Virus record (IMG/VR): IMGVR_UViG_3300032893_000058
Location: 1 to 56,288 of that record
Reading direction: 5' to 3' (one strand)
From: a virus
Length of the DNA stretch: 56,288 bases
Shown: positions 10,721 to 26,647 of the stretch, piece by piece
How positions within the stretch are numbered: position 1 is the first letter of the stretch
Layout: each line of letters starts with the position of its first letter
Translations under genes and position numbers: made by a program
Notes under the pieces: model-generated
Seen by the model: the letters and a program-made list of their open reading frames with translations, nothing else
What the model was told of the DNA's origin: nothing
Databases searched by the model: none

Positions 10721-10760
10721 CAGACAGGTGCGCGGCGTGGTTGGGTGCGGCAGATAGGAG
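10717..10760 (+). promoter_or_regulatory. TTGACA box and CAGATAGGAG leader motif
   Basis: TTGACA at 10717-10722 (the -10 is poor, GTTGGG after 17 nt), followed by CAGATAGGAG at 10751-10760, six bases before the ATG at 10767. The decamer recurs before several early genes and contains their Shine-Dalgarno. Confidence 0.4.
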
Positions 10761-10766
10761 ACGCGC

Positions 10767-11018: not shown

Positions 11019-11184
11019 GTACGGGCGCGGCCATCCGGGGCGTTATTGCAAAGACTGTCACTTCTTCCTGCCGAAGCTGTTCGTGCACCCCAATGCCTGC
11101 CAACTTGTCGCCGGGCTGATTGACCCGCTGGCCTGGTGTAAACTGTTCGAGCCCAAGACCGCACCGCAAGGACGACGATCATGA
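10969..11184 (+). CDS. Small Cys-containing protein
   Basis: 71 residues with Cys spacing YCKDCHFF, ACQL, WCKLF, a four-Cys pattern like small phage or high-potential-iron-like proteins that bind metal. A metal-binding role is inferred only from the Cys spacing. It overlaps both neighbours. Confidence 0.55.
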   Translation: MASHNDGKKDKTAADVKYGRGHPGRYCKDCHFFLPKLFVHPNACQLVAGLIDPLAWCKLFEPKTAPQGRRS

Positions 11185-11546
11185 ATTACCAATGGATGAG
11201 GGACATGAGCAACTGGGGCATAGGTAACGCCGTGCAAGAAATAAAGCCCGGCGACGAGATAAGTTGCAGCCACGCTAAATTGACGGACAGCGCCGTGTTG
11301 GTGCACGTCAATGGTGCGTGGGTCGAATTTAGGCCGCGGCAATGGAGCGACATGCAGACCACGGTTGCCGAACAGAACAAGCTGCTTGCCGCCGCCTACG
11401 CCGCGCTGCTCGAGGCGCGCGATACCTTCAACCTGGTGCAGTCGAACACGGCGCTGGCGTCGCAGCGCTCGACCGCCGCCACGCTGCCATTGACGCTCGC
11501 CATTGATGACATCGAGCGTTGGAAGCAGAAGGGCGTCAAGTCATGA
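11181..11546 (+). CDS. Hypothetical protein with coiled-coil C-terminus
   Basis: 121 residues. The N-terminal 50 residues form a small beta-rich domain; the rest is helical (TTVAEQNKLLAAAYAALLEA). It overlaps both neighbours by 4 bp, indicating coupled translation. Unknown function. Confidence 0.6.
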   Translation: MNYQWMRDMSNWGIGNAVQEIKPGDEISCSHAKLTDSAVLVHVNGAWVEFRPRQWSDMQTTVAEQNKLLAAAYAALLEARDTFNLVQSNTALASQRSTAATLPLTLAIDDIERWKQKGVKS

Positions 11547-11992
11547 CCTATCCGCGCGTCTGTTGGGCCGATGATCCGCGCTGTCTCGGCCGTCTCGTTA
11601 AGGAAGGCCCGGAACAGAGCGTCGTCAAGTGGGACAACGGCAACGAGACTGTCGTCATTAACAAATGGATCGAGCGCGTCGAAGATGAGCGCATACTGGG
11701 AAAGGGTGACGTGGCGGTAGCTGCGGTTGCGTCACCTAGGGTGGCGGAGCCGAGAGGCGCAGCTATTGACTCGGCTCCGCCGCCTGCGCCTAAAGAGCGC
11801 CGTGAACCTGACGAACTGGTCGAGCGGCTCAAAAAGTACGACGCCGCCGAACTCAAAAATTTCGCCGTAGTCAACGGCGTGTGGGATGACAAGTACACGT
11901 CGCTGCCGAACCCCGGCCTAGTGCGCATGAACATCATAAATCGCACCAGGGCGAAAGTGAAGAAGGGGTACAAAGTCAAATGGCCGAGATAG
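11543..11992 (+). CDS. Early-region paralogue A with C-terminal N-x-G-x2-R-M domain
   Basis: 149 residues. The N-terminal domain (VKWDNGNETVVI) looks like a small SH3-like barrel; a Pro/Ala linker follows. The C-terminal 50 residues (FAVVNGVWDDKYTSL, then PNPGLVRMNIINRTRAKVK) match the C-termini of the genes at 12430 and 13111. The basic conserved end suggests nucleic-acid binding (inference). Starts at ATG 11543, overlapping the previous stop. Confidence 0.65.
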   Translation: MTYPRVCWADDPRCLGRLVKEGPEQSVVKWDNGNETVVINKWIERVEDERILGKGDVAVAAVASPRVAEPRGAAIDSAPPPAPKERREPDELVERLKKYDAAELKNFAVVNGVWDDKYTSLPNPGLVRMNIINRTRAKVKKGYKVKWPR

Positions 11993-12156
11993 GTGAAACC
12001 CGCCGCATCCGGTTCCTGTACGGCGGGACCTGGACCCGCTGGTATGACGACACTGACGCCGCGTTGCTCGAAATGGACAACGTCGAGGTAGAAGCCGTCG
12101 AAATTCAAGAGACGATGACCAGGGCAGAATTTGAGAGACGCTATGGAGATAAGTGA
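11980..12156 (+). CDS. Hypothetical small protein
   Basis: 58-residue frame overlapping both neighbours. Compact beta-rich start (RRIRFLYGGTWTRWYDD) then an acidic helix. Unknown function. Confidence 0.5.
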   Translation: MAEIGETRRIRFLYGGTWTRWYDDTDAALLEMDNVEVEAVEIQETMTRAEFERRYGDK

Positions 12157-12355
12157 ACTAGTGATGGAATGTCTTGACCGCGGCCCGATGACCCGACGTG
12201 AGATAGCTGTCGCATTGGGACGGGAACGTCAGAGTGCCGGTGCACTTGAAGTGGTCCTTATCAATTTGGCGCGTCGGGGTAAAGTGGTGCGGGAAGAGCG
12301 GGTTCCCGGCATAGGCAAAACTTACGCCGATCTGAAGTGGAACGCGTGCAAATAA
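12143..12355 (+). CDS. Winged-helix DNA-binding protein
   Basis: 70 residues. The pattern is a winged helix: GPMTRREIAVALGRERQSAG (helix-turn-helix), then VLINLARRGKVV and a beta-hairpin wing (REERVPGIGKTYAD). It is probably a small transcription regulator. Start chosen at ATG 12143, overlapping the previous stop by 14 bp. Confidence 0.6.
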   Translation: MEISELVMECLDRGPMTRREIAVALGRERQSAGALEVVLINLARRGKVVREERVPGIGKTYADLKWNACK

Positions 12356-12356
12356 C

Positions 12357-12385
12357 TTGACAAGCGTTTCGCCGCATGTTTTAGT
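12357..12385 (+). promoter_or_regulatory. Putative early promoter
   Basis: TTGACA, 17 nt, then TTTAGT; starts 2 bp after the previous stop codon and drives the gene at 12430. Confidence 0.6.
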
Positions 12386-12426
12386 TGCTCCATCGGCCGC
12401 GACCGGCCGTTCAGATAGGAGCAACT
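12383..12426 (+). promoter_or_regulatory. Leader stem-loop that buries the Shine-Dalgarno
   Basis: AGTTGCTCC (12383-12391) is perfectly complementary to GGAGCAACT (12418-12426), which contains the GGAG ribosome-binding site of the gene starting at 12430. A smaller GC-rich palindrome (CGGCCG) lies in the loop. If formed, it would lower translation. Confidence 0.55.
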
Positions 12427-12429
12427 GCC

Positions 12430-13017
12430 ATGAAGATTCATCACAACACGCTGAAGAAGGCCAAGGCGCACGGGCTGATCGTCGAATGGTCGGAGCCGGA
12501 TAACGTCTTTGTTGTTAGCAAAGACGGCGATCCAGTTGTGGAAGCGAAGGACCCCAAGGACGCGCTCGATCTCGCCATTCTTGAATTGAGCGGCGGGGGT
12601 GTCGGGACAACGAAACCAAAGCCGACGACGCGCAAAGCGAAGAAGGCCGAGGCGCCGCGCAAGCGCGCCGACGACGAGGACGAGAGCGAGAATGGCGACG
12701 ACGAGGGCGACGCCTCCCGTTCGGTGGTCAAGGCCAAGTACCGCGCCCGCTATCTGCCAAACAAGGGTCACTGCGGTGACGATCTCGCCAAGAAGCTGCG
12801 CGACGCGTTCATGACCGAGAAGGATGAGGACACCGGCAAGCCGCGGCTCGATTTCGAGGCGTTCGTCGAATTCGCCAAAGCCAACGGCGTGTGGGTCGAG
12901 GGTTACCGCCGGCTGAAGGACCGCCATGGCAACCGCAATGACGGCCTGATCCGCATGAATTGCGCGAACCGCCTCCGTGCCAAGGTGCGGCGCGACAAAC
13001 ACAAGATCGTGTGGTAA
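12430..13017 (+). CDS. Early-region paralogue B with acidic linker
   Basis: 195 residues. N-terminal domain (residues 1-60), then a basic stretch (KPKPTTRKAKKAEAPRKR) directly followed by an acidic one (DDEDESENGDDEGD), then a C-terminal domain with FAKANGVWVEGY and RNDGLIRMNCANRLRAKVR, shared with the genes at 11543 and 13111. The charged linker and basic end suggest a DNA- or RNA-associated protein. It has its own promoter and a leader hairpin. Confidence 0.65.
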   Translation: MKIHHNTLKKAKAHGLIVEWSEPDNVFVVSKDGDPVVEAKDPKDALDLAILELSGGGVGTTKPKPTTRKAKKAEAPRKRADDEDESENGDDEGDASRSVVKAKYRARYLPNKGHCGDDLAKKLRDAFMTEKDEDTGKPRLDFEAFVEFAKANGVWVEGYRRLKDRHGNRNDGLIRMNCANRLRAKVRRDKHKIVW

Positions 13018-13026
13018 CATTTCGAC

Positions 13027-13055
13027 TTGACACCATCAGGCCCGCCGTGCTTTTC
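13027..13055 (+). promoter_or_regulatory. Putative early promoter
   Basis: TTGACA, 17 nt, then CTTTTC (weak -10). It lies directly after the stop at 13017 and before the gene at 13111. Confidence 0.4.
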
Positions 13056-13110
13056 CTGGCGCAGCGGGCCTAACCATGTGTGGGCTTCAGCACAAGGACA
13101 GGAGTTTGTC

Positions 13111-13572
13111 ATGGCAAAGCGTAAGACCAAAGGCGCGACCATCGATACCGGCGCCTACGATTATAAGACCCTAAAGGTCCGCGGCAAGGACGGCAAGATT
13201 CACTATTCGCGCGGCAATGCCGACGCCGTCGCCAAGGCGACGCTGTTACATTTCGCTAATGGCGGTACGCTCGACCAGGTGGTTAAGGCGAACAAGCTGG
13301 ACATCGACATTTCCGCCGCGGCGAACGCCGGCCAGGCCCGCATGACGGTTGGCGGCGTGTTGCGCGCCAAGATCAGGGCCGGCGACACGGTCAAGATCGG
13401 CTCGATTACCATCAAGTCGCTGAAACAGCACATTGACCTGCCGAAGGTCGAGGCGATCGATCCGTCACGGAAGAAGAAGGCCAAGAGCGCCAAGACCAAG
13501 AAGCCGGTCCGGCGCATCCGGCGCCGCGACGTGCCGGCCCCCGCCGAATCGCCGCAGCCCGAAGCGGCCTAA
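13111..13572 (+). CDS. Early-region paralogue C, basic protein
   Basis: 153 residues, strongly basic at both ends (MAKRKTKG; KKKAKSAKTKKPVRRIRRRD). The central part has ANAGQARMTVGGVLRAKI, the same N-x-G-x2-R-M-x5-R-A-K motif as the genes at 11543 and 12430. A nucleoid- or DNA-binding role is likely by composition only. Start at ATG 13111 with GGAG upstream. Confidence 0.65.
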   Translation: MAKRKTKGATIDTGAYDYKTLKVRGKDGKIHYSRGNADAVAKATLLHFANGGTLDQVVKANKLDIDISAAANAGQARMTVGGVLRAKIRAGDTVKIGSITIKSLKQHIDLPKVEAIDPSRKKKAKSAKTKKPVRRIRRRDVPAPAESPQPEAA

Positions 13573-13594
13573 AAAGTAGGCGTAGCGTAGAGTA

Positions 13595-13630
13595 GCCCCC
13601 GCGCCAGCGGCCTTCCCACGGCGCGGGGGC
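13595..13630 (+). terminator. GC-rich stem-loop, terminator-like
   Basis: Perfect 11-bp stem GCCCCCGCGCC / GGCGCGGGGGC with a 14-nt loop, between two genes. No T-tract follows, so it may be a transcription pause or RNA-stability element. The CAGATAGGAG motif (13640-13649) comes 10 bp later. Confidence 0.5.
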
Positions 13631-13656
13631 ATCAAATTCCAGATAGGAGCACGTCT

Positions 13657-13971
13657 GTGACCGTCTTCGCCGTCAATCCGACCGATAACGACATAAGCGC
13701 TGCCGCCGAGTACGGCGACGTGCATTACATCAACACCCGCTACGTCTACGGCGACGAAATCAACGACCAAAAGCTGCCGCATGAAGTCTACATGATGCTG
13801 TGGCGCGCGGCCAAGGAATTTGACCAGGACACCGATTATCTGCTGCTGATTGGCGATCATTTACAGATGGTGACGTTTGCCGCACTGGTGCAGCGGGAGC
13901 ACGGCGAATTTCGCGTGCTGCGCTGGGATCGGCAGGCTAAGGGCTACGTCGTGTGCTGGGTGAGAGGATAA
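13657..13971 (+). CDS. Hypothetical protein
   Basis: 104 residues from a GTG start with CAGATAGGAG upstream. Acidic, alpha/beta-like (VHYINTRYVYGDEI; DYLLLIGDHLQMVTFAAL). Unknown function. Confidence 0.6.
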   Translation: MTVFAVNPTDNDISAAAEYGDVHYINTRYVYGDEINDQKLPHEVYMMLWRAAKEFDQDTDYLLLIGDHLQMVTFAALVQREHGEFRVLRWDRQAKGYVVCWVRG

Positions 13972-13983
13972 CAGGAGAAACCG

Positions 13984-14358
13984 ATGAGCATTATCGAACA
14001 AGCGAAGACCGAACTAGCCGCGGCTAATTTTGGTGACGAGGATAGCCGAGTGATGATCGAGATACTCGAAAAGTTTTTCGACCAATGGGACAGTGGCGGC
14101 GCCGTTGCGTTTGCTACACCGGTTTTGATGCGTTTAATCGCAGGCAAGCCTATTACTGCGCTTACTGGCGATGACGGTGAATGGGTCATTCATGATCAAG
14201 AGGGCTGTTACGCTCAGAACAAGCGTTGCGGTACTGTCTTCAAAGCGACCAAAGATGGGCCGGCTTACGACATTGACGTGCCAGGCCGACCGCCCATAAT
14301 TTTTCCTTATTGGCCGATATCGGCTGAGGTAAGAATGCCGGTCGTCGAAATCGGTTAG
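13984..14358 (+). CDS. Conserved phage hypothetical protein
   Basis: 124 residues. The layout (LIAGKPITALTGDDGEWV, then QNKRCGTVFK, then YDIDVPGRPPIIFP) resembles a small family often found in phage early regions whose role is unknown. AT-richer than neighbours. Good Shine-Dalgarno (CAGGAG). Confidence 0.6.
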   Translation: MSIIEQAKTELAAANFGDEDSRVMIEILEKFFDQWDSGGAVAFATPVLMRLIAGKPITALTGDDGEWVIHDQEGCYAQNKRCGTVFKATKDGPAYDIDVPGRPPIIFPYWPISAEVRMPVVEIG

Positions 14359-14419: not shown

Positions 14420-14956
14420 ATGCCTGCCGAAACCCTGCCGAAGTCCATTGTCAACGCGCTGCCCAGTTTTGTCAAGGTGATGGAGCACCTGGTCGCGATA
14501 TCCAAGTTGTTGCCGACGCTTGACAAGGAACTTGAGCGCGCCAAGAAGTCCGGCGCCCCGTCGCTGGCGCGGTCTTACGTCGCGCTGCACCGGATGAAGG
14601 AACGCGCCGACGAACTGCTGAAGCCGCTGTTCGGCGACGAGGGCCTTTATAAGCGCGTCAAGGAACTGGATTTTCCGGCGCTATGCGAGCAGGAGGGCAT
14701 CAAGAACGTACCGCTGGCCGAGGGCTTCCGGGTCGGCGTGTCGGCCCGCTTCCTGGCTTCGATCAAGCCCGGCAAGAAGGACGAAGCTTATCGATGGCTG
14801 CGCGAAGTTGACCTGGGCGACATCATTCAGGCCGTCGTCAACTCGTCGACGCTGAGCGCGTCACTGCGCAAGGAACTGGAAGACAATAACCGCGACATTC
14901 CGGACGAACTGTTCAATGTGGCGTTCGTGCCGAACACGTCGGTGACGAAAATATGA
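14420..14956 (+). CDS. Conserved phage helical protein of replication region
   Basis: 178 residues, largely helical. A coiled-coil N-terminal half (LDKELERAKKSGAPSLARSY) is followed by a domain with LAEGFRVGVSARFLASI and VNSSTLSASLRKELEDNN. The arrangement resembles a phage family of unknown function found near replication genes, with a terminal segment like 'fN-sfvpntsvtk'. No catalytic residues recognised. Confidence 0.6.
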   Translation: MPAETLPKSIVNALPSFVKVMEHLVAISKLLPTLDKELERAKKSGAPSLARSYVALHRMKERADELLKPLFGDEGLYKRVKELDFPALCEQEGIKNVPLAEGFRVGVSARFLASIKPGKKDEAYRWLREVDLGDIIQAVVNSSTLSASLRKELEDNNRDIPDELFNVAFVPNTSVTKI

Positions 14957-15105: not shown

Positions 15106-16122
15106 ATGCCGAAAGCACAAGCAGCAAAGAAGTCGACCAAGCCGGCGGCGCCGCAGCGTCAGGCCGCCCAGCCCGCCCGTACCGCCACCAAGGCCGCGCA
15201 GACCGCGGCGCACCAGGGGCGCGAAGAAGAGCGCCGCCCGGTGCAGCAAGCCCAGCAGCGCGCCCAGGTTCCCGCGCGCCGCGAGCCGGCGCCGCTGCCG
15301 TCCGCTGCCGTCGTTTCCCTGCCCGCGTTCATGCGGCAGGACGCCGATCTCGGCAAGGAGAACATCGGCAAGGACGATATCGAAATTCCGCGGCTGAAAT
15401 TGATGCAAGGTTTGTCGCCGGAACTGATGGAATACGACGGCCTCAAGGCTGGCTACTTCTTCCACCCGGCGGCCGAGTTCATCTTTGACGGCCCGTTCCG
15501 CGCCGTGCCGATCTTTATGGACCAGCGCTACATCTTGTGGCGTCCGCGCGATGCCGGCGGCGGCATCTTGGCCCGCGCCGACGACGGCGTGCACTGGTCG
15601 CCGGCCGGTGGTGATTTCACCGTCCAACTCGACAAGAAGGACGGCGGTCATACCGTCAAGTGGAAGCTGGCGCCGACCGTCGCCCAGTCCGGGCTGGCTA
15701 ACTGGGGCACTATGAACCCGGCCGACCCCAACTCGCCGCCGGCCGCGACGCTGATGTATAATTTCCTGCTGGCGTTCCCGGACGAACCCGACCTGATGCC
15801 GGCGGTGCTGTCGTTCCAGCGCTCGTCGATCAAGATGGGGCGCCGGTTCAACACCAAGCTTAAGACGGTGCGCGCGCCGATCTTTGGCACCATCTGGGAA
15901 TTCCGGTCGGCGGAGGATCACAACAATTCCGGCCAGACGTTCTTCAACATCGACGTCAAGTCGGCCGGGCTGGTCGAGGACCAGGATCAATACTCGCAGT
16001 ACCGGGCGATGTACGAGACGTTCAGCCAGAAGGGCCTGAACATCAAGGATTTGGAGTCAATCGGCGATGAAGAAAGCGCAATCGGTGGCGCCCCTGACAA
16101 TACTGACAGCCCTGCTATCTAG
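15106..16122 (+). CDS. Conserved phage protein of replication module, possible ssDNA-binding role
   Basis: 338 residues. The first 65 residues are low-complexity, basic and Ala/Gln/Arg-rich. The folded part begins with EIPRLKLMQGLSPELMEYDG and includes VPIFMDQRYILWRPRD, AVLSFQRSSIKMGRRFN and ESIGDEESAIGG near an acidic C-terminus. This pattern recurs in phage replication modules in proteins of uncertain role. Position, beta-rich core and acidic tail would fit a single-strand binding or recombination protein (inference, not shown). Confidence 0.6.
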   Translation: MPKAQAAKKSTKPAAPQRQAAQPARTATKAAQTAAHQGREEERRPVQQAQQRAQVPARREPAPLPSAAVVSLPAFMRQDADLGKENIGKDDIEIPRLKLMQGLSPELMEYDGLKAGYFFHPAAEFIFDGPFRAVPIFMDQRYILWRPRDAGGGILARADDGVHWSPAGGDFTVQLDKKDGGHTVKWKLAPTVAQSGLANWGTMNPADPNSPPAATLMYNFLLAFPDEPDLMPAVLSFQRSSIKMGRRFNTKLKTVRAPIFGTIWEFRSAEDHNNSGQTFFNIDVKSAGLVEDQDQYSQYRAMYETFSQKGLNIKDLESIGDEESAIGGAPDNTDSPAI

Positions 16123-17135: not shown

Positions 17136-17395
17136 CGCAGCGCCAGTTCCGCGCCCTCAAGTGGCGCGAAGTCTACCGTGACGACCGCATCGTCGTCTTC
17201 TCAGGGGGTCTAGATGGCTTCAGCCTCGTCCACGTCAAGCAAGGCCAAAAAGTTACTAACATGTACCGTGTACGAGGACGTTGGTATGACAGCCCGTCCG
17301 AAGCGGTCCTGGCCTACAACGGGCGCCCCCGACGAGACGCTGCAGACCGTGCTAAATCGGTTGAAGGACCCGACCCAGTCGACGCGCTGCCTTGA
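17129..17395 (+). CDS. Possible overlapping small gene before the polymerase
   Basis: 88 residues from a TTG overlapping the previous stop; an ATG at 17045 in the same frame is an alternative. The translation looks protein-like (YRDDRIVVFSGGLDGFSLV, MYRVRGRWYDSPSEAVLAYN). Its 3' end overlaps the polymerase start region by 110-182 bp in another frame, so either this gene or the longer polymerase N-terminus may not be used. Confidence 0.4.
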   Translation: MLTQRQFRALKWREVYRDDRIVVFSGGLDGFSLVHVKQGQKVTNMYRVRGRWYDSPSEAVLAYNGRPRRDAADRAKSVEGPDPVDALP

Positions 17396-19214
17396 CGTCG
17401 AAACGTCCGGGCTTGACTGGCGTAACAACGCCATCGTCGGCTACGTCGTCACGTTCAGCGGCGACCCGCGCGATTCCTATTACGTGCCGTTTCGCCACGC
17501 CGGTAATGCCAACGTCGGGGGTCGCGACGGTCTGAAATCGCCGACCGGCTGGGATGGCAAGCTGTTGCCGGGCGAAAAGGAACTGGTGACGGCGCTCGAC
17601 CAGCCGGGCACGCTGATGTTCGGACACAATCTGGCGTTTGATTTGCGGTTCAAGGCGCGCGTCGGCTTTAAGTTTCAACCGAAGTTCGAAGATACCATAA
17701 TCAACGAACCGCTGCTCGACGAGTATGCGACGTTCTCGCTGGTGGCCTGTGCCGCGCGCCACAACGTGCAGGCCAAGAAGGGCACCGAACTTTATGCTTA
17801 CATGGCTGACAAGCTGGGCGAGAAGAACGACAAGAACATTATGGGCCATTTCTGGCGTCTGTCCGGTGACGATCCGATGGCGGTCGAATATGCCTGCGGC
17901 GACGGCACGTCGACCTGGCAATTGCGCGACGCGCAGATGGTTGAAATTCAGGCGCAGGAATTAGGCCGCGTTCATGCTGTCGAAAGTCGCCTGATCCCGG
18001 TGCTGGCGCGCATGATGGTGCGCGGCGTCAAGGTCGACGAGGAACGCCTGGAATGGCTGATCGGGCACATCGACGATGAAGTCGAAAAACTGAAGAACGA
18101 ATTTCCGCCCGATTTCAACGCACTGTCGCCGACCGACGTGCAGGCGTGGATGGAGAAGCACGGCCATACCGACTGGCCACGCACGGCGCCGTCGCGGACC
18201 CGGCCGCAAGGCTCGCCGTCGTTCACGTCGCACTGGCTCGAGACGCACGAGGCCGGCCGCAAGATCATCAAACTACGCAAGTGGGAGAACCTCAATTCGA
18301 CCTTTTGCCATCCGCTGCGCGATCGGCACCTGTGGCACGGGCGGGTGCACTGCACCTTTAACCAGCTTCGCAACGACGAGTTCGGCACCGTGACCGGGCG
18401 ATTGTCGAGCAACGACCCCAACATGCAACAGGTGCCCAAGCACGACGAGGACTTGGGCCGGCTGTACCGGTCGGTGTTCGTGCCGGATTACGGATTGTGG
18501 GGCGAGCGCGACTACAGTCAGATCGAGCCGCGGCTGATGGCCTGGTATACGCGGGCGCGGGTGTTCCTCGACGACTATCGCAACAACCCGGACGCCGACA
18601 GCCACACCGCAGTGGCCAAGGATGCCAAGGGCGCGGCGTGGGACGACATGTCGCCGGCCGAGCAAAAGCACTTCCGCAACACTTGGGCCAAGCGCGTCAA
18701 TCAGACCGTGATCACGGGGGGCGGTAAGAACGCGCTGATCAAAAAATACAAGATGTCCGAGCAAGAAGCGATGCAGGCGCTGGTGCGCTATTTCAGGACC
18801 GTGCCTGAATTGAAGCCATTTCAGAAGAAGGCGGCGCGGTTGTTCCGCGAGCGCGGCTACGTGCGCGACGTGCTGGGGCGCCGGGCGCACTTGCGCGATC
18901 CGGACAAGGACTACACCGCGATGAACCGGCTGCTGCAGATGAGCAACGCCAGCATGCTCAAACTTAAGATGGCCGAAGTGCAGGAGTATCTGGACAGCGA
19001 GCCACAGGCGCAGGTCGAACTGCTTTTAAATTGTCACGACGCGCTGTCGTTCCAGTTTGCACTTGACAAGCGGTCGCGGGCCGCGTATGCTGAGTGCAAG
19101 CATATCATGGAGGACTTCTCAAGTGACGCGGCGATGGTCAAGATCGACCTGCCGATCAAGGTCGACGAGGGCGACGGCCCGAATTGGAGCGTCGCAACAT
19201 ACGGGGAAGATTGA
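17214..19214 (+). CDS. dpoZ: Family A DNA polymerase with 3'-5' exonuclease, DpoZ-like
   Basis: 666 residues from ATG 17214 (AGGGGG upstream); ATG 17286 with GAGGA is an equally possible start. Exonuclease motifs are intact: I LDVETSG (D61, E63), II FGHNLAFD, III YACGDGTSTW. Polymerase motif A is DYSQIEPR (D433). Motif B reads AKRVNQTVITGGG (K493), where the two usual aromatic positions of the O-helix appear to be Gln and Thr. Motif C is CHDALSF (D609), with Ala after HD instead of the usual Glu. There is no 5' nuclease domain. In the company of purZ, mazZ and datZ it is best read as the polymerase that copies 2-aminoadenine DNA; the DpoZ assignment is by context plus unusual active-site residues. 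Its stop overlaps the methyltransferase start. Confidence 0.85.
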   Translation: MASASSTSSKAKKLLTCTVYEDVGMTARPKRSWPTTGAPDETLQTVLNRLKDPTQSTRCLDVETSGLDWRNNAIVGYVVTFSGDPRDSYYVPFRHAGNANVGGRDGLKSPTGWDGKLLPGEKELVTALDQPGTLMFGHNLAFDLRFKARVGFKFQPKFEDTIINEPLLDEYATFSLVACAARHNVQAKKGTELYAYMADKLGEKNDKNIMGHFWRLSGDDPMAVEYACGDGTSTWQLRDAQMVEIQAQELGRVHAVESRLIPVLARMMVRGVKVDEERLEWLIGHIDDEVEKLKNEFPPDFNALSPTDVQAWMEKHGHTDWPRTAPSRTRPQGSPSFTSHWLETHEAGRKIIKLRKWENLNSTFCHPLRDRHLWHGRVHCTFNQLRNDEFGTVTGRLSSNDPNMQQVPKHDEDLGRLYRSVFVPDYGLWGERDYSQIEPRLMAWYTRARVFLDDYRNNPDADSHTAVAKDAKGAAWDDMSPAEQKHFRNTWAKRVNQTVITGGGKNALIKKYKMSEQEAMQALVRYFRTVPELKPFQKKAARLFRERGYVRDVLGRRAHLRDPDKDYTAMNRLLQMSNASMLKLKMAEVQEYLDSEPQAQVELLLNCHDALSFQFALDKRSRAAYAECKHIMEDFSSDAAMVKIDLPIKVDEGDGPNWSVATYGED

Positions 19215-19363
19215 TGTGGTATCTTGGCGGAAAGATGCGACAGTCGAAGCAAATCGTCGCGGCGATCGACAATTTTAGTTTGTACGTTGAGCCATTCTGC
19301 GGGGCGTTATGGTCGGCTACCGCCGTAATGAAGACTTTTCCGGGGCGCCGATACCTATTAAAC
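19214..19363 (+). pseudogene. D12-class adenine methyltransferase, 5' fragment (split by IS)
   Basis: First 50 codons of a Dam/D12-type adenine-N6 methyltransferase, with motif I-type start MWYLGGKMRQSKQI and YVEPFCGALWSA. The reading frame runs into the insertion sequence and stops after 12 foreign residues. Removing the IS and one target duplicate joins YLLN to DINPYLINMW in frame, restoring a typical family segment and a 232-residue protein. The start overlaps the polymerase stop. Confidence 0.9.
19356..19363. repeat. Target site duplication, left copy (TATTAAAC)
   Basis: Eight bases identical to 21093-21100, immediately outside the left inverted repeat of the IS. An 8-bp duplication is characteristic of the IS1595 family. 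Confidence 0.9.
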
Positions 19364-19376
19364 CATGCTTATCCGG

Positions 19377-19405
19377 TTGACACATGCAGACACTTGTGCT
19401 AGTAT
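19377..19405 (+). promoter_or_regulatory. Promoter inside the left end of the IS
   Basis: TTGACA, 17 nt, then TAGTAT, overlapping the left inverted repeat; a close match to consensus. It would drive the passenger genes and transposase, so transposase binding at the repeat could repress it. Confidence 0.65.
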
Positions 19406-19450
19406 CATGGGCGTTGGTGGCGATCACGCCACCCTCCTTGGAGGGTAAAA

Positions 19451-19774
19451 ATGGCAAACGCTCTGGTACATCCGACTAAAGTTATTGATGCGATTAATTG
19501 CGCCACGGCTGCTGAAGTTATGGCCGCAATTGAGCAGATGGGCATGAGTCTCGATTTGGCTTGCACGGTTAAAGTCAGCCTCATCGAAGAAACGCTTTCT
19601 GATGGCTCTAAAGCCCAAAGCATCGTCCTTCGTTCGGAGGATGACGCCGATTTCGCGAGAAATGTCGCGGGGTTGAATGAAGATATTTTCTTCCGGGCTG
19701 ACCTGCGCCTTCTGCGGTCTACCCTTCGCGAGTATCGACGAGAGGCAATAGCCTTGGTCGAGAAGGGGGTCTGA
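19451..19774 (+). CDS. IS passenger protein 1
   Basis: 107 residues with GGAGGG before the ATG. Mixed alpha/beta, no recognised motif. Passenger genes are known in some IS1595 subgroups; whether this one is typical of a named subgroup would need a database search. Confidence 0.6.
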   Translation: MANALVHPTKVIDAINCATAAEVMAAIEQMGMSLDLACTVKVSLIEETLSDGSKAQSIVLRSEDDADFARNVAGLNEDIFFRADLRLLRSTLREYRREAIALVEKGV

Positions 19775-19777
19775 ACC

Positions 19778-20008
19778 ATGACCAAGGCTACCGAAGGTGC
19801 GCACGAAGAAATCGACCTGTTGGGCCGTGAAATCGAGGGCCTCAATGATCAGTGCAATGAATTGGAGGCTGCCCTTCGAGAGTCGTTGAAATTGCAAAGC
19901 CACTACGCTGCGCTGCTGAATGACTATGACGGCGGCAAAAGAATGGGATTTAGCTCCGTCGAGGCGTGGCTCAATCGGCTTCGCTCTCTTAAAAGTGGGG
20001 AGGCATAG
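19778..20008 (+). CDS. IS passenger protein 2, coiled coil
   Basis: 76 residues, strongly helical with heptad-like spacing (LLGREIEGLNDQCNELEAAL). Three bases after passenger 1 and ending one base before the transposase start; probably one operon. Unknown function. Confidence 0.55.
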   Translation: MTKATEGAHEEIDLLGREIEGLNDQCNELEAALRESLKLQSHYAALLNDYDGGKRMGFSSVEAWLNRLRSLKSGEA

Positions 20009-21052
20009 ATGCCTCCCCATGCCGATGTTCTCCAATGGGAACATCTGCCGTTCCCCAAGTCGCTCCGGGATTTCCAGCGGCTTTTCCCGACTGATACTGC
20101 CTGCGCCCGCTGGCTTGAGGGTGCTAAGTGGCCGAAGGGCTTTGAGTGCCCGCATTGCCACGAAAAGGGCGACCCGCAACGGCTGGAATCCCGTCCGGGC
20201 GTCTTGGCTTGCCGATCCTGCCGTAAGCAAACGTCGCTGACGGTCGGCACGGTGATGGAGCGGACACATACGCCGCTCGCAACATGGTTTTGGGCGGCCT
20301 ACCTCGTTTCCAGCCTGACACCCGGCATTTCGGCCGTTCAACTGCAACGGCAGGTCGGACTTACAAGGTACGAGACGGCCTTCCAAATCCTGCACAAGCT
20401 CCGCGCTGGCATGGTGCGGCCAAACCGCGACCAGATCGGCGGCAATCTGGCGCGCGGCGATCATGTCGAGGTCGATGAATGTTATATCGGCGGCGAGACG
20501 CGCGGTAAGGGCAAAGGCGTGCACGCCGACGAAAAGACCCTGGTTGTTGCTGCGGTCGAAGTCCGCACGCGACCGGCCAAGAAGGGCGATAAGCCTATGC
20601 GGCGCGGCGGCCGATATGCTGGCCGTCTGCGGCTGGAAATCGCGCCGACACGTGGCGAGAAATCCCTCTGCGGCTTTGTGGAGGCTGCCGTCGCGCCGGG
20701 CGCAATCGTCATCACGGATGCGGCCCCGGCTTATAGGAACCTCGAAAAGCTCGGCTATGCCCATCTGCCGGTGATTGAAGGCGGCAATCCGGAAGTCGCC
20801 GAAGAATATCTGCCCATCGTCCACTTGGTTTTCAGCAACCTGAAAGCTTGGCTGCAGGGCACCCATCACGGTCGCGTCGAGCCCAAGCACCTGCAGACTT
20901 ATCTCAACGAGTTCACCTTCCGCTTTAACCGGCGGTTCTACCCATTCAACGCTTTCCGCTCGTTGCTCGGCATCGGGGCAAACGGCGAAGCTCCGACCTA
21001 TGATGGGCTCTATAGCGGGAAGTGGAAGCATCGGACGCTCGATCATGACTGA
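20009..21052 (+). CDS. IS1595-family transposase
   Basis: 347 residues. An N-terminal zinc ribbon (CPHCHEKGDP, then CRSCRKQ) is followed by a DDE/DDN-type catalytic domain: VEVDECYIGG (first acidic residue), IVITDAAPAYRNL (second), and STDH-like NLKAWLQGTHHGRVEPKHLQ with FTFRFNRRF near the end. Layout and length fit the ISXO2-like transposase family of IS1595 elements. It appears intact. Confidence 0.92.
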   Translation: MPPHADVLQWEHLPFPKSLRDFQRLFPTDTACARWLEGAKWPKGFECPHCHEKGDPQRLESRPGVLACRSCRKQTSLTVGTVMERTHTPLATWFWAAYLVSSLTPGISAVQLQRQVGLTRYETAFQILHKLRAGMVRPNRDQIGGNLARGDHVEVDECYIGGETRGKGKGVHADEKTLVVAAVEVRTRPAKKGDKPMRRGGRYAGRLRLEIAPTRGEKSLCGFVEAAVAPGAIVITDAAPAYRNLEKLGYAHLPVIEGGNPEVAEEYLPIVHLVFSNLKAWLQGTHHGRVEPKHLQTYLNEFTFRFNRRFYPFNAFRSLLGIGANGEAPTYDGLYSGKWKHRTLDHD

Positions 21053-21092
21053 TCAACCAATAGAGGCTGCATGTTCAAACCGGATAAGCATG

Positions 21093-21100
21093 TATTAAAC
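21093..21100. repeat. Target site duplication, right copy (TATTAAAC)
   Basis: Identical to 19356-19363, directly after the right inverted repeat. Confidence 0.9.
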
Positions 21101-21649
21101 GATATAAACCCGTACTTGATAAACATGTGGCACGCCGCTTATGACGGATGGAACCCCCCGGAAAAGGTGACGGAACGCGATTATATTTATTACAATAAAA
21201 CACGCCCGATAAATGATCCAATGACAGGTTATGTTGGGTTTGCGTGGTCATTTGGGGGTAAATTCTTTGGTGGCGCGGCACGCACCAATGGCAGGATAAA
21301 AGGATCATATAAATCAACGCGCGATAAGATCGATGTCATACGCGCGAATAATGTGCGGTTCACATGCGGGCATTTTTCCTTGGTTAAACCGCAATCGCAG
21401 TCAGTTGTTTATCTGGACCCACCTTATGAGGCCCGCACCCATCAATCACATTTGAGCAAAAGGTTCAATTACGACGAATATTTTATCTACGCCGAGAATC
21501 TTGCAAAACGTCACGTGGTGATTGCTACGTCGTTTACCAACGAACGCAAATGGAAGGTGTTGCACAATTATGGCGATACTGTCGTGCGCCATCACGCCGG
21601 AAAAGCCCCCGATGGTACAATAGAGCTGCTGTTACGGGTAGGAAAATGA
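21101..21649 (+). pseudogene. D12-class adenine methyltransferase, 3' fragment (split by IS)
   Basis: The remaining 182 residues, starting with DINPYLINMW directly after the target duplication. It contains the catalytic motif IV DPPY (VVYLDPPYEARTH). The segment is AT-rich compared with the polymerase. An ATG inside the right end of the IS (21071) could start a truncated protein, but motif I would be missing. Its stop overlaps the next start by 4 bp. Confidence 0.88.
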
Positions 21650-22149
21650 AGGAAACCGCCATTCAAGCCATCGTCTGCGACGTGGTCAACGAGGCCGGCG
21701 GCTTCGCCATGAAGATGGACAACGCGTTCGTCGGCGGCGTGGCGGACCTGCTGATAAAATTGCCGAATTACAGGCAATTTAAAGGTTGGCGCGGTCGTGG
21801 TGACGCAGCTAGTTTTCTTGAAGTTAAGCAACGGGTCCGTCCGCGCACCGGCAATGCGACGTTCTCGCTCGACGTGACGCACCTGCAGGACAAGTTCTTG
21901 CGCCGAGCCGACGCCGCCGGCATCCCGTGCGGTGTGGCATCGTTCATGCAAGAAGGCACCGGGTCGGGGCTGAAATTGTGGCTGCACGTGATGACCTGGC
22001 GCGTCGCTAGCTACGAGGACGGTGTCGGTGCCAAAGCGTACACGACCTGTCCGGACGCACACATCCTGCTGGGGCGCAAGGGCGAGCGCGAAGGCCCGCT
22101 GCTCAGCGCACTATATGACTGGCACCAAAAATGGAGGGAAGAGCGATGA
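21646..22149 (+). CDS. VRR-NUC-like nuclease
   Basis: 167 residues. The core has the PD-(D/E)XK/VRR-NUC pattern: a helix with AGGFAMKMDN, the G-x-x-D motif GGVADLLIKL, and the strand ASFLEVKQ carrying E and K. The tail end (LQDKFLRRADAAGIPCGVA) matches the family's final helix-strand. Such proteins act as Holliday-junction resolvases or structure-specific nucleases in replication and packaging. It is translationally coupled to the broken methyltransferase. Confidence 0.65.
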   Translation: MKETAIQAIVCDVVNEAGGFAMKMDNAFVGGVADLLIKLPNYRQFKGWRGRGDAASFLEVKQRVRPRTGNATFSLDVTHLQDKFLRRADAAGIPCGVASFMQEGTGSGLKLWLHVMTWRVASYEDGVGAKAYTTCPDAHILLGRKGEREGPLLSALYDWHQKWREER

Positions 22150-22655
22150 CCTTGGGAACCGTCGACTATCGCTGCGACGAGTGCAACGCTGACTATAAGA
22201 ATTGCGGCGGTGGCGACCTGATACAATGTCCCAAGAACCGCGGCCCTAATAAAGGGTGCGGGTTGCGCATGGTGCGTCACACGGACGAAATCGTAGCCGG
22301 TAATGCCGAAACTGCGGCGCTGTTGTCGCAGCCAGAAATTACCGCCAAAGCGTCGTGGTTATTGGCCGAAGGCGGCCAGTCTTTGGCCTCCATCCTGTCC
22401 GACCGCGGCAAGACCCACGGCGATTTCGGCGACAACGCTGAAATTGCGCTGCAGATTCGCGACGTGATGCGCAGTGCCAAGCCGCACTGGTCGAACCTGT
22501 CAGCCGAGCAGCGACTGGCGCTTGAAGAGATCGCGCTCAAGATCGCCCGCATCTGTAGCGGCGGCAACTGGGAGGCGGAACACTGGCGCGACATCCAAGG
22601 CTACGCTAAGCTGGGCGAAAACGTGTGCAACAGCAGGAACGCGGCGCAAGAATGA
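22146..22655 (+). CDS. Zinc-ribbon plus DUF6378-like protein
   Basis: 169 residues from ATG 22146 (overlapping the previous stop). The N-terminus has Cys pairs (YRCDECNADY, GGDLIQCP, GCGLRM) like an RNA polymerase subunit-type zinc ribbon. The C-terminal domain has DRGKTHGDFGDN, EIALKIARICSGG and DIQGYAKL, a pattern of a phage family of unknown function (DUF6378-like). Just upstream of purZ. Confidence 0.6.
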   Translation: MTLGTVDYRCDECNADYKNCGGGDLIQCPKNRGPNKGCGLRMVRHTDEIVAGNAETAALLSQPEITAKASWLLAEGGQSLASILSDRGKTHGDFGDNAEIALQIRDVMRSAKPHWSNLSAEQRLALEEIALKIARICSGGNWEAEHWRDIQGYAKLGENVCNSRNAAQE

Positions 22656-22798
22656 AACTGCTTTGTTATTGGTTTGGTCATAAATGGAAATGGTCAGAGT
22701 GGTGGACACCGCCAACTGTACCGCCTAGTCCGTGTCTTTATCGCTGGAAAACGTGCCAGCGATGCGGAGAATCTTATCGTCAGCACGTTTTAAAATAG
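22652..22798 (+). CDS. Small Cys/Trp-rich phage protein (DUF1660-like)
   Basis: 48 residues, coupled to the previous gene (ATGA). Layout CYWFGHKWKW, then CQRCGESY matches small phage proteins with one Cys near GHKW and a CxxC, probably metal-binding. Function unknown. Confidence 0.55.
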   Translation: MKLLCYWFGHKWKWSEWWTPPTVPPSPCLYRWKTCQRCGESYRQHVLK

Positions 22799-22809
22799 GA
22801 GATCAGATC

Positions 22810-23901
22810 ATGTGGCTCGATCAATTCTGTCAGCGCGGCAAGGCCGACGTGATCGTCGGCGGGCAATGGGGCTCGGAAGGCAAGGGCGCCGCGGCGGCCT
22901 ATCTGGCGCGGCGGTTAGCCGAAGGTTTTCGCTCCTACGATGTTTACAGCACCAATGCCGGCGCCCAGGCCGGACACACATCGGTTCACAGGGGACGCAA
23001 GCGCGTCGTGTTTCATTTGCCGACCGCGGCACTGATCGCGCGGGATCACGATTTTCCTGGACTGATCCACTTGAACGGCGGGTCGATCATCGACCCCGAC
23101 GTGTTGGAACAGGAACTTAAGGACAACGACCTGACCACCACCGACGTTCAAATTCACGCCAATGCCGCGGTGATCACGCAGGACTGCAAGGACGCCGAGG
23201 GCTTGGCTCATTCAGTGCAGACCAAGATTGCTTCGACCCGCAAGGGCGTCGGCGAGGCGCTGGCGCGCAAGGTGCTGCGATCCGGCGTGATCGCCAAGGA
23301 CCACCCGTTCCTGCGCCAGTTCGTGCGCCCGATACCGTGGCGCATGTTGAGCATTGACCGGGTCCTGGTTGAAGTGCCGCAAGGCATCGGGCTGTCGGTC
23401 GACGGGCAATTTTACCCGCACTGCACGTCGCGCAATTGCACGCTGCAGCAGGGGCTGGCCGATGCCGGCATTCACCCGCGCCAGTTCGGCGCCTCGATGT
23501 TGGTGCTGCGTACCACGCCGATCAGAGTCGGCAACATTGTCGAATCGTTGAGTATTGACACGCCATTTGGCGCGGTACGCAGTAAACCCACTGTGCTTGG
23601 CACGTCCGGCGGCTACTATGCTGACCAGCGGGAATTGTCGTGGAACGAATTAGGCGTGCCGCCGGAAATTACCACCGTGACCAAGCGCGTGCGCCGCGTG
23701 TTCTCGTTCTCGGGTCGGCAGGCGCGTGAAGCCATAATGCTGACGCGCCCTGACGTGGTACATCTGACGTTCTGCGATTACCCGGTTAACGTGGCTGAAA
23801 TCACGATCAGCATTATCAACACGGCGGAGCATTTCAGGCTTGAGCCTAAGGTGTTGTTCCAATACGGGCCGACGACTGACGACGTTCAGGAGGAAATGTG
23901 A
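22810..23901 (+). CDS. purZ: PurZ, 2-aminoadenylosuccinate synthetase
   Basis: 363 residues from ATG 22810 with AGGAGA upstream; an in-frame codon at 22732 overlaps the upstream small gene. It belongs to the adenylosuccinate synthetase family: P-loop GGQWGSEGKG (residues 17-26), NAGAQAGHT with the conserved His56, TRKGVGEA, and GTSGGYYADQ near the end. In PurA the P-loop reads GDEGKG with a catalytic Asp; here it is Ser22, the change known to mark PurZ, which joins aspartate to dGMP to make the precursor of 2-aminoadenine. It is shorter than typical PurA (about 430). Followed by mazZ and datZ, it commits this phage to a Z-genome (function by family knowledge). Confidence 0.93.
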   Translation: MWLDQFCQRGKADVIVGGQWGSEGKGAAAAYLARRLAEGFRSYDVYSTNAGAQAGHTSVHRGRKRVVFHLPTAALIARDHDFPGLIHLNGGSIIDPDVLEQELKDNDLTTTDVQIHANAAVITQDCKDAEGLAHSVQTKIASTRKGVGEALARKVLRSGVIAKDHPFLRQFVRPIPWRMLSIDRVLVEVPQGIGLSVDGQFYPHCTSRNCTLQQGLADAGIHPRQFGASMLVLRTTPIRVGNIVESLSIDTPFGAVRSKPTVLGTSGGYYADQRELSWNELGVPPEITTVTKRVRRVFSFSGRQAREAIMLTRPDVVHLTFCDYPVNVAEITISIINTAEHFRLEPKVLFQYGPTTDDVQEEM

Positions 23902-24212
23902 GCCGCACCACGCTGTCCGACCGCCGGTTGTCAATAACGGCCAAACTGACACACATCAAGGCTGACGGCGGCGAATTGCACGTCATCGCTACCTTCGGAC
24001 TTGACAGAGGACAGGTGCGTGAAGTTTTTTGCAGTTCATTCAAGGACGGTGCCGACGTGCGGGGCCTGGTCATCGACGCCTGCGTCTGCATGTCGTTGTT
24101 GCTGCAACACGGGTATTCGGTGCGGGACCTGAAGGGCAAGTTGATCCCGGCGCCGCAGTCGGTGCTGGCGACGCTGGTCGACGCGGCGATAGAGATAGAG
24201 GGTGAAAAATGA
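23898..24212 (+). CDS. TSCPD-domain-like protein coupled to purZ
   Basis: 104 residues from a GTG overlapping the purZ stop (GTGA). The pattern RGQVREVFCSSFKDGADVRG, then IDACVCMSLLLQHGYSV resembles the TSCPD domain found at the C-terminus of some ribonucleotide reductases and as stand-alone alphaproteobacterial proteins. Its biochemical role is unknown. Its overlap with both purZ and mazZ (4 bp each) suggests it belongs to the Z pathway, perhaps in nucleotide sensing or scaffolding (inference). Confidence 0.6.
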   Translation: MSRTTLSDRRLSITAKLTHIKADGGELHVIATFGLDRGQVREVFCSSFKDGADVRGLVIDACVCMSLLLQHGYSVRDLKGKLIPAPQSVLATLVDAAIEIEGEK

Positions 24213-24598
24213 GCGAACCATCAGCCAGACAACAATTTGAAAATAAATACGGCGTGCCGACTGAAGTGTATTGCATGAAATGTGACAATTGTTGCTTACG
24301 TATTGACGGTTCAGTAATTTCACCTGAACGCATCCGGCCGACAGTGGCTGCTTTTGCTGTTGCTATGGAGGCCAAACTTCGCAAAAATGACCACAAGACC
24401 GCGTGGCGCGACTTGCCGGTCGAGGCGCTGTTTCGGCAGTTGCTGATTGAACTTGAGGAATTCAAGGTCGCTGACGAGTTTCTCAACGTGTCCGAGGCCC
24501 GTAAGGAACTGGTCGATCTGGCCAATTTTTGCCTCATCCTGCACGACCGTCTCGGCATGCTCGACCAGGATAAGAACCGCCATGCCCAACCAAAGTGA
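24209..24598 (+). CDS. mazZ: MazZ-like (d)GTP pyrophosphohydrolase
   Basis: 129 residues. MazG/DUF550-type all-alpha NTP-PPase: FAVAMEAKLRKND, then LLIELEEFKVA (acidic residues 81, 83, 84) and EARKELVDLANFCLILHDRL (E100, D103), the metal-binding ExxE...ExxD arrangement. In known Z phages MazZ cuts (d)GTP to (d)GMP, the PurZ substrate. An N-terminal Cys cluster (C22, C25, C28, C29) is an extra feature that may bind a metal. Coupled to its neighbours; overlaps datZ by 17 bp. Confidence 0.82.
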   Translation: MSEPSARQQFENKYGVPTEVYCMKCDNCCLRIDGSVISPERIRPTVAAFAVAMEAKLRKNDHKTAWRDLPVEALFRQLLIELEEFKVADEFLNVSEARKELVDLANFCLILHDRLGMLDQDKNRHAQPK

Positions 24599-25223
24599 AC
24601 TGATCCAGATGTTTCCGCCCGAACTGCGCACGGCGTCGGTCGTGCCGCGTTGGTCGGTGTTGTGGACGCTGACGCGCGATACCATCGCCAACCACAGTTT
24701 TTATGTGGCGATATATGCGCGGTCCATCGCCCGGCTGATCAAGTGGCGCAGCTCAAATTACGCTATGTTGATATATTTGGCGTTGACCCACGATCTGGAC
24801 GAGACGATCACGGGCGATATCGTGTCGCCGATCAAGTCGGAAATCGTGGACCGCGACCGCTATGACGCGCTGGTGGCGCGCAAGATGCGCGAGCGGCTGC
24901 CTGACATCGAGGCCGAACTGTCGGTATGGGCTAATACGACTGGCCGGGGCGCCTCCTTCGGCCACGTCGGGGCGGAGCAACAATATGACGAAGCCTGGAA
25001 AATCATCGCCGTGGCCGATCGCCTTGACGCGCTGCTGTTTCTGATCGGCGAGCAGCGCATGGGCAACGGCGTCATTGCGCCGCGCATTCCGGACGCGCAA
25101 AACCGTCTGCACGCGGCGTTCATGGAACTGCCGAAGGTCAAGCAGGAACTGGAAGCATTGTGGCAGTGCGTAATGCTGCCGGTGATCCGGGAACACGGCG
25201 ACACGGGAGGGAACGGCGTTTAA
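24582..25223 (+). CDS. datZ: DatZ-like HD-domain dATP triphosphohydrolase
   Basis: 213 residues from ATG 24582. The HD phosphohydrolase site is intact: RW at 23-24, IANHSF (H38), LTHDLDE (H70, D71), and AVADRLDALL (D146). The size and motif spacing fit YfbR/DatZ-like enzymes. In Z phages DatZ removes dATP so that only dZTP is available for replication. It lies directly after mazZ and overlaps the following helicase start (TAATG). Confidence 0.87.
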   Translation: MPNQSELIQMFPPELRTASVVPRWSVLWTLTRDTIANHSFYVAIYARSIARLIKWRSSNYAMLIYLALTHDLDETITGDIVSPIKSEIVDRDRYDALVARKMRERLPDIEAELSVWANTTGRGASFGHVGAEQQYDEAWKIIAVADRLDALLFLIGEQRMGNGVIAPRIPDAQNRLHAAFMELPKVKQELEALWQCVMLPVIREHGDTGGNGV

Positions 25224-26647
25224 TGCGCTGGCACCTGAACCACGCCGTACACGGCACGAAGCCTTGGGCCGTGCAGCATGCCTATCTCGACGCTGCGGCC
25301 GGACGCCAGCGCTACGGCAATTTTTCGCAGCAGGGGCTGGGCAAGACCGCCGACACGCTCAACGAATTCATTGACTTCGAGGACGTGGACCTGTGCGTCG
25401 TGCTGGCGCCGTCCAGCTTCATGGCCGACTGGCCGCTGGCGCCGGCCGAGTGGGGCGCCGGTTTCTTGCGCACCGGCATGTGGGGGCGCGACGACTTGCC
25501 CTTCGACTGGGACTGCGGCCTGTACTCCATCGCGCACGAGACGCTGCGCGGGTCGAAGCGCGCTCGCGACGAACTGCTGGAATTATTTGAAAAGCGACGC
25601 TGCATGCTGGTGTTCGACGAGGGCACCGGTATCAAGGATGCAAATTCAGTGTTGGCGCGGTACGTTGTCGGCGCCCTGTCCAAGGAAGCCGTATACACGC
25701 GGGTGCTCAACGGCACGCCAATAGTGCAGGACGCGCTCGACTACTTTGCACAACTGCGCCTGCTGGGCGAATGCAACGGCATGAATCCTTACGCCTTCCG
25801 CAACCGGTTTTGCCAGATGGGGGGCTTCAAGGGTAAACAGGTCAAAGGCATTCGCAACGAAGACGAATTGGGCCGCATCCTCGACCGCTGCTCGTTCCGA
25901 GCGCTGAAACGCGACTGGCGCAAGGACCTGCCGCCGCAGATCGACCAGCCCATTCATCTTGAAATGACCGACAGCCAGCGCAAGCACTATCATACGATGA
26001 TGGAAGAGTTTTATGCGCTGGTCGGCGACGACGAAGAAGTCAGCGCTGAACTGGTGTTGACCCAGCGCCTTAAACTGCAACAAATCTCATCCTGCATGCT
26101 GATGGACAAGGGTAAGGTGCACTGGCTGGAATTGCCGAAGAACAATCCGAAACTGCGCGCCGCGTTCGACCTGATGGAGACGGGCAACGGCAAGATGATC
26201 GTCGTCTATTACTTCGACCCGTCCGGCCGCATGCTGATCGAACAATTTCAAGAAGCCGGATATGCCCCGGCCTGGATCACGGGCGGCATGACGGCCGAGG
26301 ACATCGTGGTACAGAAGGCAAAGTTCAACAACGATTCGTCGTGCCGGGTGCTCATCGGACAGATTGACCAGACCAGCCGCGGTCACACGCTCGTCGGCAA
26401 GCCGGGCAACGACCGCTGCTCGCGCACCTATTATTACGAGACGGACCTGAGCCTGATGCACCGGCTGCAGATGAACGACCGCAATCATCGTGGCGAGCAG
26501 GACGAGACGTGCTACATTTACGATCCCATCGCGTCGCCAATCGACCAGTTAAACGTCGACATCTTGACGCGTAAGAAGACCCAGGCCGACGGAATGGACG
26601 AACTGGTGCGATTGATAAGGGAGCAAAAGCATGGCCGAGCAGCTTAA
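25223..26647 (+). CDS. SNF2-type superfamily 2 helicase
   Basis: 474 residues from ATG 25223. Motif I GLGKTADTL (about residue 40), motif Ia LAPSSFMADW, II LVFDEGTGI (DEGx instead of the usual DEAH), III LNGTPI, IV KMIVVYYFDP, V IDQTSRGHTL, VI MNDRNHRGEQ. This matches phage SNF2-like helicases. It probably acts in replication or recombination, or in displacing proteins from DNA. Confidence 0.83.
   Translation: MRWHLNHAVHGTKPWAVQHAYLDAAAGRQRYGNFSQQGLGKTADTLNEFIDFEDVDLCVVLAPSSFMADWPLAPAEWGAGFLRTGMWGRDDLPFDWDCGLYSIAHETLRGSKRARDELLELFEKRRCMLVFDEGTGIKDANSVLARYVVGALSKEAVYTRVLNGTPIVQDALDYFAQLRLLGECNGMNPYAFRNRFCQMGGFKGKQVKGIRNEDELGRILDRCSFRALKRDWRKDLPPQIDQPIHLEMTDSQRKHYHTMMEEFYALVGDDEEVSAELVLTQRLKLQQISSCMLMDKGKVHWLELPKNNPKLRAAFDLMETGNGKMIVVYYFDPSGRMLIEQFQEAGYAPAWITGGMTAEDIVVQKAKFNNDSSCRVLIGQIDQTSRGHTLVGKPGNDRCSRTYYYETDLSLMHRLQMNDRNHRGEQDETCYIYDPIASPIDQLNVDILTRKKTQADGMDELVRLIREQKHGRAA

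Follow-up and report, generated by a model that had tools for sequence, protein, structure and literature searches.

A predicted 2-aminoadenine pathway and a family A polymerase with an altered helix O in an uncultured podovirus

Does the virus represented by IMG/VR record IMGVR_UViG_3300032893_000058 carry 2-aminoadenine (Z) in place of adenine in its DNA? The record was analyzed over its full length of 56,288 bases, which is referred to here as the window, and the original prediction had placed a Z-genome pathway in it. This pathway has been established for the phages S-2L, phiVC8, and SH-Ab 15497 (PMC8342488, PMC8599892). We consider it very likely that a cluster of purZ, mazZ, and datZ in the window makes the deoxynucleoside triphosphate of Z (dZTP) and removes dATP, resulting in a phage genome with Z for adenine that is copied by the family A polymerase (PolA) encoded upstream. 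Two results support the predicted pathway well: the window PurZ groups with phage PurZ and not with PurA, and dozens of related contigs have kept the purZ-mazZ-datZ triad. The identity of the genes, their order, and their conservation were observed directly, and from characterized homologues we infer the enzyme activities and the presence of Z in the virion. The gene set is already known in kind. What is new is a large branch of polymerases with a change in helix O that accompanies the Z cluster and is unlike that of the known DpoZ polymerases.

In the proposed pathway, MazZ-2 would convert dGTP to dGMP, and PurZ would join aspartate to dGMP to give succinyl-dZMP. The host PurB and nucleotide kinases would then complete dZTP, while DatZ would destroy dATP. 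From this altered pool, the genome would be copied by the phage PolA, for which a primase-polymerase (PrimPol)-helicase may provide the primers.

PurZ

22810 to 23901, plus strand: PurZ, predicted 2-amino-adenylosuccinate (succinoaminodeoxyadenylate) synthetase; start ATG at 22810 behind GGAG

The first gene of the triad had been predicted to be purZ because it encodes a PurA-family protein with Ser in the P-loop, and this was confirmed. The P-loop reads GSEGKG, with Ser replacing the catalytic Asp13 of PurA, and the catalytic His41 is retained (AGHT). At the position of E. coli Asp13, the alignment has Ser in 101 of 101 phage rows and Asp in 8 of 8 PurA rows. Ser was also present in all 147 phage PurZ sequences examined by Poubanne et al. 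(PMC12884076). The top profile in an NCBIfam search was amino_Aden_PurZ with 197 bits, compared to 136 bits for the best PurA model, and the nearest structures in the PDB were the PurZ proteins of phiVC8 and S-2L. A PurZ tree had been set beforehand as a check. PurA was separated with 100% support, and the window protein grouped with phage PurZ, on the PurZ side and not with PurZ0, at 99%.

The gene could instead be a host-like PurA that serves purine salvage, as the authors describing Ochrobactrum phage vB_OspP_OH (OH) assumed for the OH gene, which was formerly annotated as an adenylosuccinate synthase (PMC7139368). This is extremely improbable, and the candidate was rejected on three grounds: the replacement of the catalytic Asp by Ser, the placement in the tree with PurA separated at full support, and the higher score of the PurZ hidden Markov model than of the PurA models. 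The company of MazZ and DatZ also argues against a host-like enzyme.

A scan of viral contigs with the single PurZ sequence found nothing, whereas scans with two alignments did find matches. At the loci L082, L091, and similar ones, the surrounding module is absent and purZ is part of a viral contig of 111-146 kb, so the gene is present in much larger phages too.

MazZ-2 and DatZ

24209 to 24598, plus strand: predicted MazZ-2-like (d)GTP pyrophosphohydrolase of 129 residues; between purZ and datZ, separated from purZ by one small gene
24582 to 25223, plus strand: predicted DatZ-type HD phosphohydrolase (dATP triphosphohydrolase); YfbR-like family PF12917, 64 bits

The middle gene of the triad had been described as a MazG/DUF550 protein, of which the MazG-like part stood and the DUF550 part did not. 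The four metal-binding acids E81, E84, E100, and D103, the counterparts of E35, E38, E50, and D53 in S-2L, are invariant in MazZ. When the MazZ family profile was compared using hhalign, it matched MazZ-2 of phiVC8, ZP6, and OH at 98.1% (E-value 7.5e-14) and MazZ-1 at 8.2%. Together with the lack of a DUF550 match, this led us to reject MazZ-1/DUF550 in favor of the MazZ-2 kind. Searches with an AlphaFold model of MazZ (predicted local distance difference test, pLDDT, 77) ranked MazG- and HisE-like structures first, at weak E-values.

The prediction of an HD phosphohydrolase in the cluster was borne out. In addition to the PF12917 match, the best PHROG was phrog_7076, "dATP triphosphohydrolase" (1.1e-15), and the residues H39, H71, D72, E75, D80, and D147 (numbered from the codon at 24579) are invariant. 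The DatZ family profile matched the known DatZ set at 99.7% by hhalign. In PDB searches, YfbR scored above S-2L DatZ. We infer the specificity of DatZ for dATP from its homologues.

The polymerase

17214 to 19214, plus strand: family A DNA polymerase with 3'-5' exonuclease, Q762/T766 type (E. coli numbering); PF00476, 180.7 bits

A dpoZ gene had been predicted upstream of the cluster. The gene found there does encode a family A polymerase with proofreading, since the 3'-5' exonuclease residues D, E, D, Y, and D are intact, but its assignment to DpoZ was not upheld. The best NCBIfam model was phage_DpoZ_1 (NF038380) with 273 bits, below the cut-off of 500. Both known DpoZ clades share a Phe in place of the conserved helix-O Tyr (phiVC8 F459, equivalent to E. 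coli Y766), and the phiVC8 clade additionally has L455, G548, and insertions (PMC8599892). At these signature sites, the window polymerase has Thr766 and not Phe, Gln762, and Asn845, and insertions 2 and 3 are absent.

Trees of the polymerases were computed without the helix-O columns. The window polymerase was placed outside the phiVC8-like and Wayne-like DpoZ clades, in a clade of its own with 96-100% support, so the DpoZ tree that had been set beforehand as a check put it in neither known clade. The branch is apart from both kinds of DpoZ and from non-Z polymerases, and its Tyr766 members lie near the base. Eight known phages were used as non-Z polymerase references, and no PurZ was found in them with the NCBIfam model. 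Grouping the branch with phiVC8-like DpoZ was not rejected in an approximately unbiased (AU) test (p 0.557), and the two were sisters when the tree was rooted on non-Z polymerases, a result that favors a common origin. Because of these two results, a fully independent third polymerase origin is not claimed. Judged by these trees, the polymerase is a sister to phiVC8-like DpoZ or a separate branch, and not a member of a DpoZ clade. What we claim is that the same site was altered in a different way, and we make no claim that the gene arose separately.

Residue 766 and the presence of the Z cluster

Residue 766 is Thr in 48, Asn in 3, Ser in 2, and Tyr in 6 of the 59 rows of the branch, a count that includes near-duplicates. 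Thr, Ser, and Asn at this position were found exclusively on purZ-bearing contigs. Viral contigs were also searched with the polymerase alone to avoid sampling by PurZ. In this search, purZ was nearby at 12/12 Thr/Asn766 loci compared to 0/68 Tyr766 loci, although some of the 12 are on contigs already seen, some are near-copies, and the counts ignore shared ancestry. A Fisher p for Thr/Asn766 with purZ likewise makes no correction for common descent or duplicate contigs, and no weight is placed on it. More than 7 kb was available on both sides at 14 of the 68 Tyr766 loci, and searching 14 Tyr766 records in full for PurZ found none.

One relative has apparently lost the cluster. This locus (L207, positions 9944-14023 of the 66-kb record G012) keeps PrimPol, Gam, the gp34-like gene, PolA, the nuclease, and SNF2, and its residue 766 is Tyr. 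Between the polymerase and SNF2, purZ, mazZ, and datZ are absent, and purZ is absent from the whole record. The L207 polymerase nests within the Thr766 clade with support of 99/97 and 100/99. On the simplest reading, this lineage lost the Z cluster and its polymerase reverted to Tyr766; this is a single case. The helix-O change (Tyr766 to Thr and Phe762 to Gln) is probably part of the adaptation of the polymerase to Z. It is an even question, in our estimate, whether the branch represents another kind of Z-adapted replicase, in which the helix-O Tyr became Thr, Ser, or Asn, residue 762 became Gln, Met, or Leu, and Tyr came back after the loss of purZ-mazZ-datZ.

Another possible explanation is that the DNA is only partially substituted. 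dZTP would be made, the polymerase would not discriminate, and DatZ alone would set the Z content, giving a mixture of A and Z. The window polymerase lacks every DpoZ signature tested, the six purZ-bearing relatives with Tyr766 have DatZ, and S-2L, with its unspecific PrimPol, relies on DatZ for exclusion (PMC8065100, PMC8599892), all of which would fit such a mixture. However, the confinement of Thr/Ser/Asn766 to purZ-bearing contigs and the Tyr766 of the one relative without the cluster point to adaptation of the polymerase, and we regard mixed DNA as possible but rather unlikely.

The IS1595 insertion and evidence against a Z genome

19214 to 19363, plus strand: 5' fragment of a D12/Dam-type adenine methyltransferase gene; sequence MWYLGGK...EPFCG...
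19364 to 21092, plus strand: IS1595-family element; transposase at 20009-21052, NF033547, 188.9 bits
21093 to 21649, plus strand: 3' fragment of the split D12 methyltransferase gene; PF02086, 32.4 bits

An IS1595 element, inserted between the polymerase and the Z cluster, interrupts a D12 methyltransferase gene. Its inverted ends are CATGCTTATCCGG and CCGGATAAGCATG, and the perfect 8-bp target duplication, TATTAAAC, suggests that the insertion is recent. A transposon that breaks a gene 1.7 kb upstream of purZ could mark a decaying cluster that has lost its function in the window genome. This is highly improbable, given that all the open reading frames of the cluster are open, the catalytic residues are invariant, and the element sits in the methyltransferase gene, outside the module conserved in relatives. 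No relatives of the D12 methyltransferase were found beside purZ in related contigs, except for one weak 26% match in L196. At 9213-9914 there is another methyltransferase-like gene, seemingly whole, which encodes an NPPY motif (phrog_799, 179.6 bits).

Several observations weigh against our preferred reading of a Z genome made by the cluster. The 197 bits of the window PurZ are under the 300-bit cut-off of NF038379, which no related PurZ row scored reaches, including that of OH (241). With phmmer, the single DatZ sequence was nearer to YfbR-type 5'-deoxynucleotidases than to S-2L DatZ. The six purZ-bearing relatives that retain Tyr766, all with DatZ, indicate that a phage can carry the cluster without Thr766. 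Lastly, there are adenine-methyltransferase-like genes in the window, one broken by the IS element and the other apparently whole. Such enzymes would have nothing to act on in DNA fully substituted with Z, unless their target is Z itself or the DNA of the host.

Gene order and relatives

14420 to 14956, plus strand: Gam-like inhibitor of host nuclease, with which the conserved replication module begins; 41% to the OH Gam-like protein
15106 to 16122, plus strand: Pam3 gp34-like protein, conserved module member; PF23977, 161 bits; 36% to OH
21646 to 22149, plus strand: endonuclease-like protein (PHROG 93); kept in relatives, where it also lies between polymerase and purZ
22131 to 22655, plus strand: DUF6378-like protein; PF19905, 24.5 bits, slightly below cut-off; immediately precedes purZ in most close relatives
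23898 to 24212, plus strand: TSCPD-like small protein, similar to the C-terminus of B12-dependent ribonucleotide reductase; NF005736, 6e-4
25223 to 26647, plus strand: SNF2-type helicase; PF00176; adjoins datZ in most relatives

From 21646 to 26647, the gene order is nuclease, DUF6378-like, purZ, TSCPD-like, mazZ, datZ, and SNF2 helicase. The genes from purZ through SNF2 are all on the plus strand and overlap by 1-17 bases, in agreement with the coupled cluster that had been described. The DUF6378-like protein was modeled as a possible second nucleotide hydrolase, which gave an all-helical model (pLDDT 82), and a fold search of this model against the PDB found no match. The TSCPD-like gene between purZ and mazZ has a 70% identical copy in L040 and a 35% match in L200.

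In IMG/VR, at least dozens of contigs carry the order Gam, gp34-like, PolA, (nuclease, DUF6378), PurZ, MazZ-2, DatZ, and SNF2. The nearest relative, L040 on a 56,393-base record, is 73-75% identical in the polymerase and 79% in the helicase, and it has a P22 coat too. A P22 coat match was found in 3 of the 14 relatives tested, and as most were without one, the replication module travels with different heads.

Among known phages, OH (Wolominvirus) is arranged like the window. It is a podovirus of an alphaproteobacterium and has the order PrimPol, Gam, gp34-like, PolA, nuclease, DUF6378-like, PurZ, MazZ-2, small gene, DatZ, and SNF2, with the small gene swapped around mazZ compared to the window. 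Its genome is 41 kb and not 56 kb, its Z-related proteins are 28-40% identical to those of the window and its terminase 27%, it has no P22 coat match, and its polymerase is M762/S766 compared to Q762/T766. The OH genes were read by the phage's own authors as phosphate salvage (PMC7139368). Czernecki et al. (2021) listed OH among Z-cluster phages with MazZ-2 (PMC8342488), so the suggestion that the window belongs to a lineage without a description had to be given up.

Vibrio phage phiVC8 shares with the window the purZ-mazZ-datZ triad, the proofreading PolA, and the MazZ-2 type, but its DpoZ has L762, F766, G845, and insertions 2 and 3, none of which are in the window polymerase. Cyanophage S-2L also has the triad and a primase-polymerase gene; however, its MazZ is MazZ-1, and PrimPol is its only polymerase, with no PolA. 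Gordonia phage Ghobes and Arthrobacter phage Wayne have a PurA-like enzyme with Ser and a PolA. In contrast to the window, they carry PurZ0 with DutZ/DmtZ and no DatZ.

The virus and its host

The first 127 bases of the record recur exactly at its end, and one long reading frame is joined across the two ends. This exact terminal repeat indicates that the record is a complete genome of about 56.2 kb, either circular or with terminal repeats. The virus is an uncultured podovirus. A megablast search with the 9.4-kb polymerase-to-helicase region found no match in 50,697 phage records.

6603 to 8837, plus strand: primase-polymerase/helicase (PrimPol and DUF5906); PF09250, PF19263
27253 to 28848, plus strand: UvrD-type helicase; PF00580, 87.7 bits
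36200 to 37678, minus strand: P22 gp10-like packaged-DNA stabilization/head closure protein; phrog_578, 311 bits
39797 to 41008, minus strand: P22-type coat protein; PF11651, 97.6 bits
46621 to 48981, minus strand: portal protein; phrog_156, 296 bits
48983 to 50326, minus strand: terminase large subunit; tblastn to annotated terminases, 27% to OH TerL

The coat protein match supported the proposed P22-type head, and the minus-strand late genes also include scaffold, head-closure, and DNA-ejection proteins. At 13984-14358, there was a match to Tad3, an inhibitor of Type I Thoeris (PF25185, 72.7 bits), which is likely an anti-defense gene beside the Z module.

A GcrA-like gene had been reported in the window, for which the evidence was weak: the PF07750 (GcrA) profile matched no window protein at E <= 1. 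The likely source of this claim is the open reading frame at 8806-9297, which has a helix-turn-helix-like start and a C-terminal GcrA-like Cys/His pattern (PGKPYCWAHM). GcrA is an alphaproteobacterial regulator, and true GcrA genes were found in 4 of 13 related virus records (G001, G004, G005, and G006). The closest copies of the IS1595 transposase, 80-82% identical in protein sequence, were mostly in Hyphomicrobiales genomes (Xanthobacteraceae, Rhodoplanes, and Pseudorhodoplanes). Since none of these host copies was near-identical, no host species is named. The copies in Hyphomicrobiales, GcrA in the relatives, and the host of phage OH make the proposed alphaproteobacterial host plausible, and the host is probably a member of Hyphomicrobiales.

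Implications

How a polymerase discriminates Z from A is unsolved, and the determinant was not located in the published study of DpoZ. The branch described here provides natural variants at one active-site position, with Thr, Ser, Asn, or Tyr compared to Phe in DpoZ, beside the same Z cluster. Together with the Tyr766 relative that has no cluster, these variants make the question of Z/A selectivity directly testable. Because a published survey of viral PolA was restricted to sequences in which residue 762 is F, L, or Y (PMC9069017), it would have missed the polymerases described here that have Gln762 or Met762. The spread of the module suggests that the few isolates understate how common Z genomes are in uncultured phages.

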